DNA of 22,895 bases. Origin: a virus. How positions within the stretch are numbered: the stretch's first letter is position 1; each line of letters opens with the position of its first letter. The DNA lies in IMG/VR virus record IMGVR_UViG_3300037108_000111, positions 1-22,895 of that record; one strand, given 5' to 3'. The notes under the pieces are model-generated. The model made no database searches, had not been told where the DNA came from, and was given only the letters and a program-made list of their open reading frames with translations. Positions 6,395 to 14,527 of this stretch are shown here, piece after piece. Made by a program: the position numbers and the translations under genes.

Positions 6395-6850
6395 ATGCAG
6401 ACGAGCGCGGCGGGGATTGAGCTTATCAAGCGCAGCGAGGGCTTTGCCGATAAACCCTACCCCGACGCCGGCGGCGTCTCCATCGGCTACGGCCATCACA
6501 TCCTGAATCAGGTGCCCGATTGCTGGGCGCAGGGTATCGACCTGGCTACGGCCGAGCGCATCCTCACCGACGATGTCGAGTCCGCCGAAGACGCGGTGGG
6601 CCGCCTGGTGAAGGTGGCGCTCACTCAGGGCCAATTCGACGCCCTTATCGACTTCACCTTCAACCTGGGATCGGGCAAATTAGCCGGCTCGACACTGCTG
6701 AAAAAGCTGAACGCCAAAGACTACGACGGCGCCGCCCAGCAGCTCCTGCTATGGGATCACCTGGGCGCTGGGCCCAATGCGCCGGTAAGCCCCGGTCTGA
6801 AAGCGCGCCGCGAACAGGAATTCGCACTGTGGAAGGGCCAGCCCGCATGA
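6395..6850 (+). CDS. Phage endolysin, GH24 lysozyme
   Basis: This 151-residue muramidase cleaves the peptidoglycan glycan strand at the end of infection. The catalytic pattern is E15 (KRSEGF), Y22, D24 (YPDAGG), S29 and the GYGH motif at 31-34. The E-to-D spacing of nine residues equals that of T4 lysozyme, with Ser in place of its catalytic-site Thr. NLGSGKLAGSTLLKKLN and the C-terminal LWDH...R..E..LW are also typical of the family. There is no signal peptide, so release should need a holin; the holin-like gene at 8308 is a candidate. The start at 6395 has GGGGGAG eight bases upstream. The stop overlaps the next ATG as ATGA. Confidence 0.93.
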   Translation: MQTSAAGIELIKRSEGFADKPYPDAGGVSIGYGHHILNQVPDCWAQGIDLATAERILTDDVESAEDAVGRLVKVALTQGQFDALIDFTFNLGSGKLAGSTLLKKLNAKDYDGAAQQLLLWDHLGAGPNAPVSPGLKARREQEFALWKGQPA

Positions 6851-7320
6851 AGACTCTCCTCCTCGTAATCGCTCTCTTCATCTCGCTGGCAGCCCAAGCG
6901 CAGGCGCCGGTGCAGAATCTTTACGCCATCGGCGGCTCATACAACATCAACGCCCGGCCCAGCGTGGCGGGCACCGCGCTCTACGCGCACTACGTGGCGG
7001 GGCCGGGGACTTATGCTTTCGCGGCGATCGACGCGCTGCCGGGCACCATCAAGCCATTCGCCGTGACCAGCAACGTGGGCGCGGGCGTGGCGCAAAAGCT
7101 CTTCAGCGTGGGCCGCGTGGGGCTGTACCTGCCCACGGCGGCGGGCATCAGTTGGACCGGCGCGAATACCGGCTGGCAGTGGAGCGGCGGCGCGGCGGTG
7201 ACGGTGAGGCTGAAAGGCAGCTTCGGCGTGATGCCCACGGTGCGCTTCCTCAAATCGAGTGTCTCGGGCGGATCCGGGTACCAGCCGGTGATCGGCCTGC
7301 TGTTTTCGTTTGGAAAGTAA
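6847..7320 (+). CDS. Predicted outer-membrane beta-barrel-like protein
   Basis: This 157-residue protein has a signal peptide (MKTLLLVIALFISLAAQAQA). The mature part consists of alternating hydrophobic and polar strands rich in Gly, Ala, Tyr and Thr: VQNLYAIGGSYN, YAHYVAGPGTYAFAAI, VGLYLPTAAGISW, WQWSGGAAVTVRL. It ends in a Phe-containing strand (VIGLLFSFGK), as in small outer-membrane barrels. It is translationally coupled to the endolysin (ATGA). Phage-borne outer-membrane proteins can block receptors or protect the lysogen; that role is inference. A part in outer-membrane disruption at lysis is also possible. No specific family was recognised. Confidence 0.65.
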   Translation: MKTLLLVIALFISLAAQAQAPVQNLYAIGGSYNINARPSVAGTALYAHYVAGPGTYAFAAIDALPGTIKPFAVTSNVGAGVAQKLFSVGRVGLYLPTAAGISWTGANTGWQWSGGAAVTVRLKGSFGVMPTVRFLKSSVSGGSGYQPVIGLLFSFGK

Positions 7321-7349: not shown

Positions 7350-7946
7350 ATGAAAAACGTTTGGACTGTAACCATCGCCCTGCTGTGCTGCACGCTAGCC
7401 CTCCCCCTGACGGCCTGCTCGCCCTCGCAGGCCAAGATCAACAGCGTCGTCCAGCAAATCGATACCTGGACCGGCGTGCTGGCCCCGGACGCCACTGCGC
7501 TGCTCACCGACATTGCAGCCTTCGACCCCGGCGACGCGGCTGTGCTACAGAATGCCGTCACGCTCATCAACACCGATGCGCCGCTATTAGAGGCCGCCTG
7601 CAAGCAATACCTCGCCGCGCCCTCCGCCTCGACGCTGGCGCAGATTACGGCCTTCGTGGGCGAGCTGGCCACGGCCGACAGCGCCGGGCTGCTGCAGGTG
7701 GCCCAGGTCAAGAATCCGAATTCGCAAAACACCGCCAAGGAGATACTGACCACGATTGCCTTGGGACTCACCATCGCCAGCGGCCTGCTACAGACCATCA
7801 ATCAAGCGCCGACGGTGCAAGTGAAGGTCTCGCTGAATAACATGAAGCCCTTCCTCGACCGCGCCAAGGTGGAGCAGGCCTTCCAGATGGAGAAGGATCG
7901 AGGCCTGCTGCCGCGGGGGTTGACGCTTCGAGAAGCTGGTTTTTAG
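7350..7946 (+). CDS. Predicted phage lipoprotein
   Basis: This 198-residue protein has a lipoprotein signal: MKNVWTVTIALLCCTLALPLTAC, with lipobox LTAC and lipidated Cys at 23 followed by Ser, which predicts outer-membrane sorting. The mature part is mostly helical and Ala-rich (SVVQQIDTWTGVLAPDATALLTDIA...), with a hydrophobic stretch near 135-150 (TTIALGLTIASGLLQ). An AAAAGGAG site lies eight bases upstream of the ATG at 7350. Its place between endolysin and holin-like genes hints at a spanin-like or envelope role, although it is longer than usual outer-membrane spanins. Superinfection exclusion is an alternative. Heptamer block d begins right after its stop. Confidence 0.7.
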   Translation: MKNVWTVTIALLCCTLALPLTACSPSQAKINSVVQQIDTWTGVLAPDATALLTDIAAFDPGDAAVLQNAVTLINTDAPLLEAACKQYLAAPSASTLAQITAFVGELATADSAGLLQVAQVKNPNSQNTAKEILTTIALGLTIASGLLQTINQAPTVQVKVSLNNMKPFLDRAKVEQAFQMEKDRGLLPRGLTLREAGF

Positions 7947-7949
7947 GGA

Positions 7950-7980
7950 CTGATCCCTGACCCCTGATCCCTGATCCCTG
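7950..7980 (-). repeat. Heptamer repeat block d
   Basis: Four tandem CTGATCC/CTGACCC units follow the lipoprotein stop. The minus strand matches the G-quadruplex pattern, with four G runs and loops of three or four bases. Its reverse complement is nearly identical to block e, so the two form an inverted pair around the 85-residue gene. Confidence 0.85.
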
Positions 7981-7998
7981 TTTTGCGGAGCAAACCCC

Positions 7999-8256
7999 AT
8001 GTGCCATCCCGTCACCTTCAAGAACGTCTCGCCGCGCGCCTTCCGCGCCATCGTCGCGCGGATCAGGGCGCAGGCTGAGGCCACGGAGGAGACGGGCGGC
8101 ACGGGCACGGCCAGCGGCGCGGGCTTTGCGGCGCGCTGGACCTATGAATCGAAGGACGGCACGCTGCTGATCCAGTGCACGCGCAAGCCGTGGTACGTGG
8201 CCGAGAGCCTGGTCGAGGGCAAGATTCGATCGCTGGTGGAGAGCGTGAAGGTTTAA
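7999..8256 (+). CDS. Hypothetical 85-residue protein
   Basis: This small soluble protein (MCHPVTFKNVSPRAFRAIVAR...) has an N-terminal helix, a Gly/Thr-rich linker at about 33-45 (GGTGTASGAGFAA), then strands (WTYESKDGTLLIQCT) and a C-terminal helix (IRSLVESVKV). GCGGAG lies about ten bases upstream of the ATG. It has no signal peptide or membrane segment. The family was not recognised. It is bracketed by two inverted heptamer blocks and looks like a single-gene insertion between lipoprotein and holin-like genes. Confidence 0.6.
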   Translation: MCHPVTFKNVSPRAFRAIVARIRAQAEATEETGGTGTASGAGFAARWTYESKDGTLLIQCTRKPWYVAESLVEGKIRSLVESVKV

Positions 8257-8259
8257 GAG

Positions 8260-8290
8260 CAGGGGTCAGGGATCAGGGGTCAGGGATCAG
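8260..8290 (+). repeat. Heptamer repeat block e
   Basis: Four units of AGGGGTC/AGGGATC type lie between the 85-residue gene and the holin-like gene. The plus strand, hence the mRNA, fits the G-quadruplex pattern with four runs of three or four G. It is inverted relative to block d. Confidence 0.85.
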
Positions 8291-8307: not shown

Positions 8308-9282
8308 ATGGCGAGCATCATAAGTGAAGTGCTGGCCTGGTGGCAGGGCAAGAAGACGATTGTCGGCGGCCTGCTGGTGATGCTGGCGGCGGTATGGGCG
8401 GTGGCCGCGGGCGTGCTGGACGCGCAGACCGGGCTGGCGCTGCTCGGCGTCGGCCTGGGCATCGCCGGCATGGCGGCCAAGGCCGAGCGCCACCAGGCCG
8501 AGCTGCTGGCCGTGTTGCAGGGTGTGGCTCGGGCGGGCGTGGATTACCGGGCGGGCGGCGGAGCGGGGGCCGCGATCGCGGATATGGAAGCCACGGCGAA
8601 GGCTGAGCTGCCCGCGGCGCTGAGTGCCGAGATTGCGCGGATGGATGCGCTGAGACGAGGGATCAGGGATCAGGGGTCAGGGGTCAGTGGCCCCAGCGTG
8701 CCTCCGCCTTCGCCGGGCTGGGATGGTCCCAGGCGGCTCTTCGGCGTGCTGCTGGTAACTCTCTTCTGCGCCGGGGCGCTCATGGCCCAGGGCACGCTCT
8801 ACTCTCCCGGCCGGAGCCTGGAGAATATCGACTCCCTAGAGATCGGCCTGGCCCAGAAGTCGGTGGACCTTGCGGCATATTCTTTGACGGACCGGGCGGT
8901 GGTTGAAGCTCTGGCCGATCGCGCCAGGCATGGAGTTACCATCAGAATCTATCTCGACCGGGGTGAAGTGGAGTCCGAGTGCCGGGCGGACATAAATTGC
9001 GCCCGAATTTCCCTTCATGAACTTATCGGATTACCTGGCGTCGAGATACGGGTGAAGTACTCGAAAGTTCTGATGCACCTGAAGAGTTACTGCGTCGATG
9101 GGAAGGCGGTCCGCGACGGCAGCGCAAATTTCAGCGAACAGGGTGAGGGCCGGCAGGACAATTCCGCCACGTTTTCCACCGATCCGGAGGCGGTCCGGGA
9201 GTTCCAGGCGAAGTTCGCCGAGATGTGGCTCCGGCCGGACAACCTGACGGTGGCGGAAGCGGTGGCCGGGGCGAAGAAGTAG
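8308..9282 (+). CDS. Holin-like protein fused to an exported PLD-family nuclease domain
   Basis: This 324-residue frame has two parts. Residues 1-115 look like a phage holin: WWQGKKTIVGGLLVMLAAVW..., two membrane helices at about 17-36 and 42-57, then a charged tail. Residues about 143-324 begin with a second signal-like segment (RRLFGVLLVTLFCAGALMAQG), followed by a Nuc-type phospholipase D domain. Its active-site motif is H257-x-K259-x4-D264, with GSANF at 271-275, as in single-HKD endonucleases. Residues 118-128 between them are encoded by heptamer block f. A GTG at 8698 with AGGGG upstream could start the nuclease separately. The nuclease could degrade DNA in the periplasm or outside the cell, for example against superinfecting phages. 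The fusion may be real or may reflect two genes joined by an in-frame repeat. GGAGGTG precedes the first ATG. Confidence 0.75.
   Translation: MASIISEVLAWWQGKKTIVGGLLVMLAAVWAVAAGVLDAQTGLALLGVGLGIAGMAAKAERHQAELLAVLQGVARAGVDYRAGGGAGAAIADMEATAKAELPAALSAEIARMDALRRGIRDQGSGVSGPSVPPPSPGWDGPRRLFGVLLVTLFCAGALMAQGTLYSPGRSLENIDSLEIGLAQKSVDLAAYSLTDRAVVEALADRARHGVTIRIYLDRGEVESECRADINCARISLHELIGLPGVEIRVKYSKVLMHLKSYCVDGKAVRDGSANFSEQGEGRQDNSATFSTDPEAVREFQAKFAEMWLRPDNLTVAEAVAGAKK
8659..8688 (+). repeat. Heptamer repeat block f, inside a coding frame
   Basis: Four tandem GATCAGG/GGTCAGG units read in frame as RGIRDQGSGVS and join the holin-like half to the PLD half of the gene at 8308. Four runs of three or four G with TCA or ATCA loops lie on the coding strand. 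All other blocks in the window lie between genes or in 5' leaders. Confidence 0.85.
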
Positions 9283-14197: not shown

Positions 14198-14208
14198 GGG
14201 TTAGAAAA

Positions 14209-14241
14209 CAGGGGTCAGGGGTTAGGGGTCAGAGGTTAGGG
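14209..14241 (+). repeat. Heptamer repeat block g
   Basis: About four and a half units of GGGGTCA/GGGGTTA type lie between the portal stop and the Acb2-like gene. It is G-rich on the coding strand. Its sequence is almost the reverse complement of block h on the other side of that gene. The TTA-containing units occur only in these two blocks, tying g and h together. Confidence 0.85.
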
Positions 14242-14256
14242 AAAGGCGGAAGAAGC

Positions 14257-14478
14257 ATGGCGATCACAAAAGCGAATCTCAAAGACGTTTTCAGCTATCA
14301 TGCGCCCTTGGTAACACAGCTCGATCAGTACAGCGCGCTGCGCACGGCCGCGCGCGATTTTGCCGAGACGATCCTGGACAACACACCAACCTGCGCGGAT
14401 CAGCAGGCGGCGCTCCGCCACGTTCGCGAAGCTGTGATGACCGCTAACGCCGCAGTTGCATTAAAGGGCACGGTTTGA
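14257..14478 (+). CDS. acb2: Acb2-like anti-CBASS cyclic-nucleotide sponge
   Basis: This 73-residue, two-helix protein matches the Acb2/Tad1-type hairpin family pattern. An N-terminal F12-x-Y14-H15-x-P17 is followed by Q21, Y25 and R29, helix one (ALRTAARDFAETIL), a loop with N-T-P and A-D-Q (42-49), and helix two ending REAVMTANAAVAL (57-69). Family members form hexamers that bind cyclic di- and trinucleotides. They thereby stop CBASS effectors from being activated during infection. AGGCGGAAG precedes the ATG. It sits between the portal and MuF genes, a place where Mu has no such gene, and is bracketed by inverted heptamer blocks, as for an inserted accessory gene. The family assignment rests on motif recognition; the spectrum of bound nucleotides cannot be predicted. 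Confidence 0.8.
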   Translation: MAITKANLKDVFSYHAPLVTQLDQYSALRTAARDFAETILDNTPTCADQQAALRHVREAVMTANAAVALKGTV

Positions 14479-14509
14479 CTAACCCCTAACCCCTGATCCC
14501 TAACCCCTG
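14479..14509 (-). repeat. Heptamer repeat block h
   Basis: Four units (CTAACCC CTAACCC CTGATCC CTAACCC) begin directly after the Acb2-like stop codon. The minus strand gives four G runs with TTA or ATCA loops, a full G-quadruplex pattern. It is the inverted partner of block g. Confidence 0.85.
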
Positions 14510-14527
14510 TTCGCCGGAGGCGAACGT

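Follow-up and report, generated by a model that had tools for sequence, protein, structure and literature searches.

The stretch of viral DNA analysed here (the window) is a virus record of 22,895 nucleotides that carries Mu-type genes, namely those for a transposase, portal, F protein, Gp27, Gp36 and Gp37. Positions 8308-9282 of the plus strand hold an intact open reading frame of 324 amino acids, with an ATG start and a TAG stop; the initial annotation had described it as a single in-frame ORF, and it is indeed open throughout. It joins a holin-like N-terminal half (HOL) to a PLD domain. The features of the locus are as follows.

7999..8256 (+): o85, a conserved 85-aa gene (tblastn map, junction comparison)
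8235..8241 (+): GGTGGAG at the end of o85, in the place of the PLD Shine-Dalgarno of unfused relatives; no PLD start follows (compared by eye with L019, L046 and L056)
8260..8290 (+): heptamer array 1, (CAGGGRT)n, right after the o85 stop; stop-free in all three plus-strand frames
8308..8657 (+): HOL half, a membrane protein resembling holins; the model has helices at residues 2-36 and 39-76; strong Shine-Dalgarno, -10.8 kcal/mol
8658..8690 (+): heptamer array 2, which forms the joint; oriented like array 1, without stops in all three frames, encoding residues ~117-127
8698..8700 (+): in-frame GTG proposed as a separate start; Shine-Dalgarno no better than background
8737..8793 (+): hydrophobic helix of signal type after an RR pair, residues 144-162; ends in a possible site for signal peptidase I, between ALMA and Q (cleavage site by eye)
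8794..9279 (+): PLD domain, probably nuclease-type, residues 163-324 (Pfam, PDB sequence match, model, fold match)
9076..9132 (+): catalytic signature HLKSYCVD-GKAVRD-GSANF (sequence alignment; signature as in PMC5714352)
9465..10043 (+): tmc, a conserved downstream gene with two hydrophobic segments, which bounds the module on its right side in nearly all relatives

The gene o85 matched no Pfam or PHROG family and is flanked by arrays of opposite orientation (7950-7981, minus; 8260-8290, plus). Further upstream, the ORF at 7350-7946 is lipoprotein-like, with the lipobox LTAC and a second hydrophobic stretch at about residues 133-151, and recalls one-protein spanins. The ORF at 6847-7320 encodes an exported protein of about 157 aa that has a signal peptide and whose Gly/aromatic pattern hints at an outer-membrane barrel; it has no Pfam match.

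The PLD and holin-like halves

The C-terminal half matches Pfam PLDc_2 over residues 179-307 (E=3.8e-19, one such stretch per chain). It also matches the phage PLD family phrog_12711 over residues 146-307 (E=6.7e-14), a range that includes the signal helix, and the profile of that family is without the HOL part. The closest solved structure by sequence is the endonuclease Nuc (1byr, E=9.6e-7). The initial annotation had pointed to an HKD motif, and H257, K259, D264 and GSANF (271-275) lie where it placed them, with the exact spacing H257-x-K259-(x)4-D264-(x)6-GSAN of the HxK(x)4D(x)6GSxN signature that PMC5714352 describes in NucT, Nuc and Zucchini. The same annotation had named lack of conservation of this motif among homologues as evidence against its reading; alignments of 12 and 22 sequences show the catalytic residues to be invariant. 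In the AlphaFold model the PLD domain is confident (pLDDT mostly >90), the N-terminal helical hairpin less so. The domain matches NucT best by fold (VIA Z 19.3 over 147 residues, rmsd 2.1), followed by Nuc (Z 17.3), Zucchini (16.4) and the two-HKD Streptomyces phospholipases (about 11-12). A BFVD structure search returned distant PLD proteins and nothing closer, and a search of an annotated phage collection gave a single match, at 24% identity, in an unannotated record. Since the nuclease subfamily is closest in both sequence and fold, the PLD half is probably a single-HKD nuclease of the NucT/Nuc type. Members of this subfamily act as homodimers that share one active site and cleave nucleic acid independently of metal. 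The window PLD deviates at none of the 50 sites otherwise invariant in the sequence set, and the enzyme half looks maintained; its long terminal branch in the PLD tree (0.43) counts against this picture.

The likeness to NucT (Helicobacter pylori, PDB 6ehi) and Nuc (Salmonella/pKM101, PDB 1byr) extends to the single HKD domain, the signature, the fold and, as a prediction, export, at 21-22% identity. NucT is membrane-associated in the periplasm (PMC5714352). Unlike either enzyme, the window PLD follows a holin-like hairpin, with a repeat-encoded linker between the two, in a phage lysis-module context.

Whether the N-terminal half is a holin, as first proposed, finds less backing in its sequence than in its genomic context. 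HOL is a small protein with one strong and one weak hydrophobic helix, encoded between the lysozyme and terminase genes, and so resembles holins in size, in having one to three membrane helices and in lying in a lysis module. The window HOL had no match when compared with holin families, and so none above a curated cut-off. Three of 13 aligned HOL proteins match Phage_holin_3_2 (PF04550, best E=0.0018) and one matches the holin family phrog_175 (E=0.0073). A match of HOL to PF02812 (E 0.034) was judged to be chance, and no fold match was obtained for the HOL part searched within the full-length model, where its pLDDT is about 60-75. The context is more telling. Among the loci that show both places, none has HOL together with another, unrelated two-TM gene that lies upstream of o85 (HB): 11 loci have HOL only, nine HB only and one neither (Fisher P=3.4e-5, uncorrected for kinship). 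Because the two are never found together, we suggest that they fill the same role, which makes HB a candidate alternative holin. HB lies at 4429-4710 in L050 and 4892-5158 in L056, is also present in L027, L034, L038, L042, L046, L053 and L102, and gave no match to protein families. The window HOL deviates at four of 20 otherwise invariant sites, the most of 20 HOLs, although these numbers are small, and the activity that defines a holin, timed lethal permeabilisation of the inner membrane, may be lost.

The initial annotation also noted that a signal-like helix restarts near residue 143, and a second strong hydrophobic helix is present at 144-162 (KD 1.97). This helix after RR is a putative signal for export across the inner membrane, as in NucT and Nuc; the lipobox of most relatives is not kept in it (LFC instead). 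Charged residues surround the membrane segments: KK precedes helix 1, AKAERH follows helix 2 and RR precedes the third helix. Their placement fits a predicted HOL hairpin with both ends inside and the PLD domain outside. The second HOL helix is weakly hydrophobic, and a single membrane pass would put the PLD on the cytoplasmic side. Most likely the product is a polypeptide anchored in the membrane, its nuclease lying outside the inner membrane and perhaps freed by signal peptidase I. Human PLD3 and PLD4 are membrane-anchored by an N-terminal helix and then released by cleavage. They are PLD-fold nucleases (Z 12-15 to the window domain) that differ in having two HKD motifs and in belonging to the eukaryotic lysosome, and they serve as an analogy only.

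Gene order and kinship in related phages

Viral contigs were scanned three times and genomes once, which yielded about 40 distinct related Mu-like phage contigs. Three of these are Acidobacteriaceae MAG contigs, none of them fused, and as these carry PLD relatives the probable host is a bacterium of the Acidobacteriota living in soil or peat. The initial annotation had called for relatives with the halves apart, and HOL and PLD are two genes in every relative that has both, in different frames or with stops between. It had also named a stop codon within the block in related phages as evidence against its reading; this is not what they have, the genes being separate and mostly in reverse order. 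The conserved order is o85 > PLD > HOL > tmc > o107 > gp27 > terL, and HOL precedes PLD only in the window and in L017/L100, where, in L017, the ATG of the PLD gene follows the HOL stop by two bases. The fusion of HOL to PLD is confined so far to one phage, the window being the only copy among the roughly 40 distinct contigs. An ancient bifunctional gene was ruled out, as no second such fusion exists in this set.

The two halves have different nearest kin. In the HOL tree (FastTree) the window groups with L017/L100 (0.91), which share with it both HOL kinship and the HOL-first order. In the PLD tree it groups with L023, L002, L003, L007, L021 and L024 (support 97/88), so that L017/L100 were ruled out as the source of the whole ORF. 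Differing kin are expected from recombination at the joint, although other recombination could give the same.

PLD has also been joined to a different membrane protein. In ten relatives, nine of them distinct (L002, L016, L017/L100, L042, L048, L053, L058, L059 and L102; L017 and L100 are near-identical), it is fused to an N-terminal TM segment plus coiled coil, a module that is a stand-alone gene in L050 and L056 and weakly matches three Rz-like spanin families (E 0.04-0.1). These proteins, of which that of L017 was modelled, resemble the window product in that the same PLD comes after a membrane protein at the N terminus and another hydrophobic helix lies just before the domain; they differ in their unrelated partner and in a joint without heptamers. 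Mapped on the tree, this fused state requires about five changes, of which well-supported branches force at least four, with gains and losses not told apart. Such recurrent change suggests that attaching this PLD to a membrane is tolerated, if not favoured, and the recurrent fusion to another membrane protein makes a genuine bifunctional membrane nuclease, as the initial annotation had considered, more plausible.

Heptamer arrays at gene boundaries

The joint was said to be encoded by a repeat block, and the period-7 array at 8658-8690 does encode GIRDQGSGVSG (residues ~117-127). The array units in the window are CAGGGRT and CAGTGGT, with CAGTTNT-type units in some relatives; arrays in the opposite orientation carry TGA in every frame. 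Seven of the eight other arrays fall within the tested span 982-22662, and all seven are wholly non-coding, where the non-coding share of the span is 6.8% (P ~9e-10 under random array placement). Because all seven are intergenic, an array within an ORF probably marks a former gene boundary. Arrays 1 and 2 share 20 identical bases.

The relatives show where that boundary may have lain. Their PLD start usually overlaps the o85 stop (typically ATGA), and a GGTGGAGGCG-type Shine-Dalgarno often lies inside the end of o85, serving PLD. In L019, L023, L046, L056 and L062 an array starts at about codon 3 of PLD, right after the o85/PLD overlap; the repeat is less regular in L062 than in the other four. 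In the window the order is instead GGTGGAG, o85 stop, array 1, HOL, array 2 and PLD signal helix, PLD being without its own start and HOL without its own stop. The PLD array of L019 shares 27 identical bases with the joint array and 20 with array 1. We set this identity aside as proof of origin, since unit differences limited to A/G allow chance and L019 is not the nearest PLD. A search for arrays in L017 found none.

In the three Acidobacteriaceae MAG genomes, CAGGGRT-type arrays numbered 23, 9 and 1, against 2, 0 and 5 for a reversed-pattern control, an excess well above the control in two genomes and absent in the third. The TAACTGA heptamer arrays of Beggiatoaceae and Cyanobacteria are stop-free one way and have stops in all frames the other way (PMC4679880, MacGregor 2015). 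The window arrays are like them in being tandem, of period 7, of few copies, at gene starts and open in one orientation only. They are unlike them in unit (CAGGGRT, with neither TAACTGA nor TCAGTTA), in host group (Acidobacteriota) and in that one array lies inside a phage ORF.

Arrays also border a small gene elsewhere in the window. A 73-aa ORF at 14257-14478, between the portal and MuF genes, matches Acb2_Tad1_hairpin (PF24729, E=8.5e-10), an anti-CBASS/anti-Thoeris sponge family, and is flanked by opposite-orientation arrays (14208-14242, plus; 14479-14510, minus). L053 has a homologue near the lysozyme gene, L056 has one upstream of o85 and L083 one before HOL. The portal/MuF gap is about 45-70 bases in many relatives and holds other small ORFs in L016 (6257-6469, between opposite-orientation arrays) and L048 (8130-8310, with one array). 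Bordered by arrays, this gap is a possible hotspot of small accessory genes.

A proposed fusion and its alternatives

With moderate confidence we read the ORF as a repeat-mediated, lineage-specific fusion of two genes from the lysis/accessory module in a Mu-like phage of Acidobacteria. A repeat-mediated merging of two genes, one of the options first raised, is supported by the separate genes of the relatives, the array at the 5' end of unfused PLD and the differing kin of the halves. HOL would have come to sit inside the heptamer array that marked the o85/PLD boundary, which would leave it between two direct arrays and deprive PLD of the ribosome-binding site and start that relatives have at the end of o85. 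As the array is stop-free in any frame and HOL lacks a stop, ribosomes from the strong HOL site would run on into PLD. The predicted product is the HOL hairpin with both ends cytoplasmic, a cytoplasmic Gly/Ser/Pro linker, the third helix and the NucT/Nuc-type nuclease, which would face outward from the inner membrane, either still tethered there or set free by signal peptidase I. The sequences themselves show the separate genes of the relatives, the array positions, the missing PLD start, the open frame and the conserved active site, whereas the direction and order of events, the topology, the cleavage, the nucleic-acid substrate and the role are inferred. The change of gene order may predate the array event or be independent of it, since L017 shares HOL kinship and order and is without arrays.

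The halves might instead be fused on paper only, PLD being exported separately from an internal start (ATG 8641, GTG 8698 or GTG 8746), perhaps coupled to HOL translation, and HOL being made either alone or with a PLD tail attached. Starting at GTG 8698, the codon suggested in the initial annotation, the product would have a normal n-region that carries RR ahead of the hydrophobic helix and is about as long as in unfused relatives, and separate expression is the state in all relatives. Yet the Shine-Dalgarno energies at the in-frame ATG and GTG codons of the joint (8641, 8698, 8746 and 8782) run from -3.0 to -5.8 kcal/mol and do not pass the background 10% quantile of -5.9, whereas HOL has -10.8 and the PLD start of many unfused relatives -9.3; GTG 8698 itself scores -5.4. 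Some true genes score weakly too, among them the PLD starts of several other relatives (-2.8). Because no stop ends HOL, some read-through is unavoidable. A separate PLD start is not supported by these signals, and we regard this reading as unlikely. Equally doubtful to us is that PLD acts on membrane phospholipids as a lysis factor, disrupting the outer or inner membrane with spanin-like partners. The gene does lie between those for lysozyme and terminase, and most unfused relatives have a lipobox-like Cys before the domain; the other fusion partner recalls spanins, but its Rz-like matches are below any reliable threshold, and the nearest sequence (Nuc) and fold (NucT) belong to the nuclease subfamily rather than to the two-HKD phospholipases. 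That the joint is an assembly chimaera at the repeat, or the gene a decaying one without maintained function, seems very improbable. A single fused copy is known, and arrays 1 and 2 share a repeat of a kind that the Acidobacteriaceae MAG genomes also contain; this shared repeat is, however, shorter than ordinary reads, both flanks keep their conserved neighbours o85 and tmc, and the invariant PLD sites are intact.

Beyond the repeat-mediated fusion itself, we offer as a tentative and rather speculative idea that the heptamer arrays found across Acidobacteria and their phages act as frame-neutral joints for gene fusion, one orientation being open in all three frames and the opposite one stopping all of them, and that with the other fusions they repeatedly tether an exported PLD nuclease (or phospholipase) to lysis-module membrane proteins, giving a lysis-linked surface enzyme not yet described. 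The literature on phage PLD in lysis cassettes or superinfection exclusion yielded nothing relevant. The enzyme could digest DNA in the periplasm at lysis, or the DNA of superinfecting phages. In this locus a short intergenic repeat would have turned coding and merged two phage genes, and the unfused states in relatives make the step visible. A conserved, uncharacterised and probably exported PLD protein, a putative nuclease, is found in the lysis region of Acidobacteria Mu-like phages, several times coupled to membrane proteins, with nucleic acid digestion at lysis, superinfection block and membrane attack as its candidate roles.
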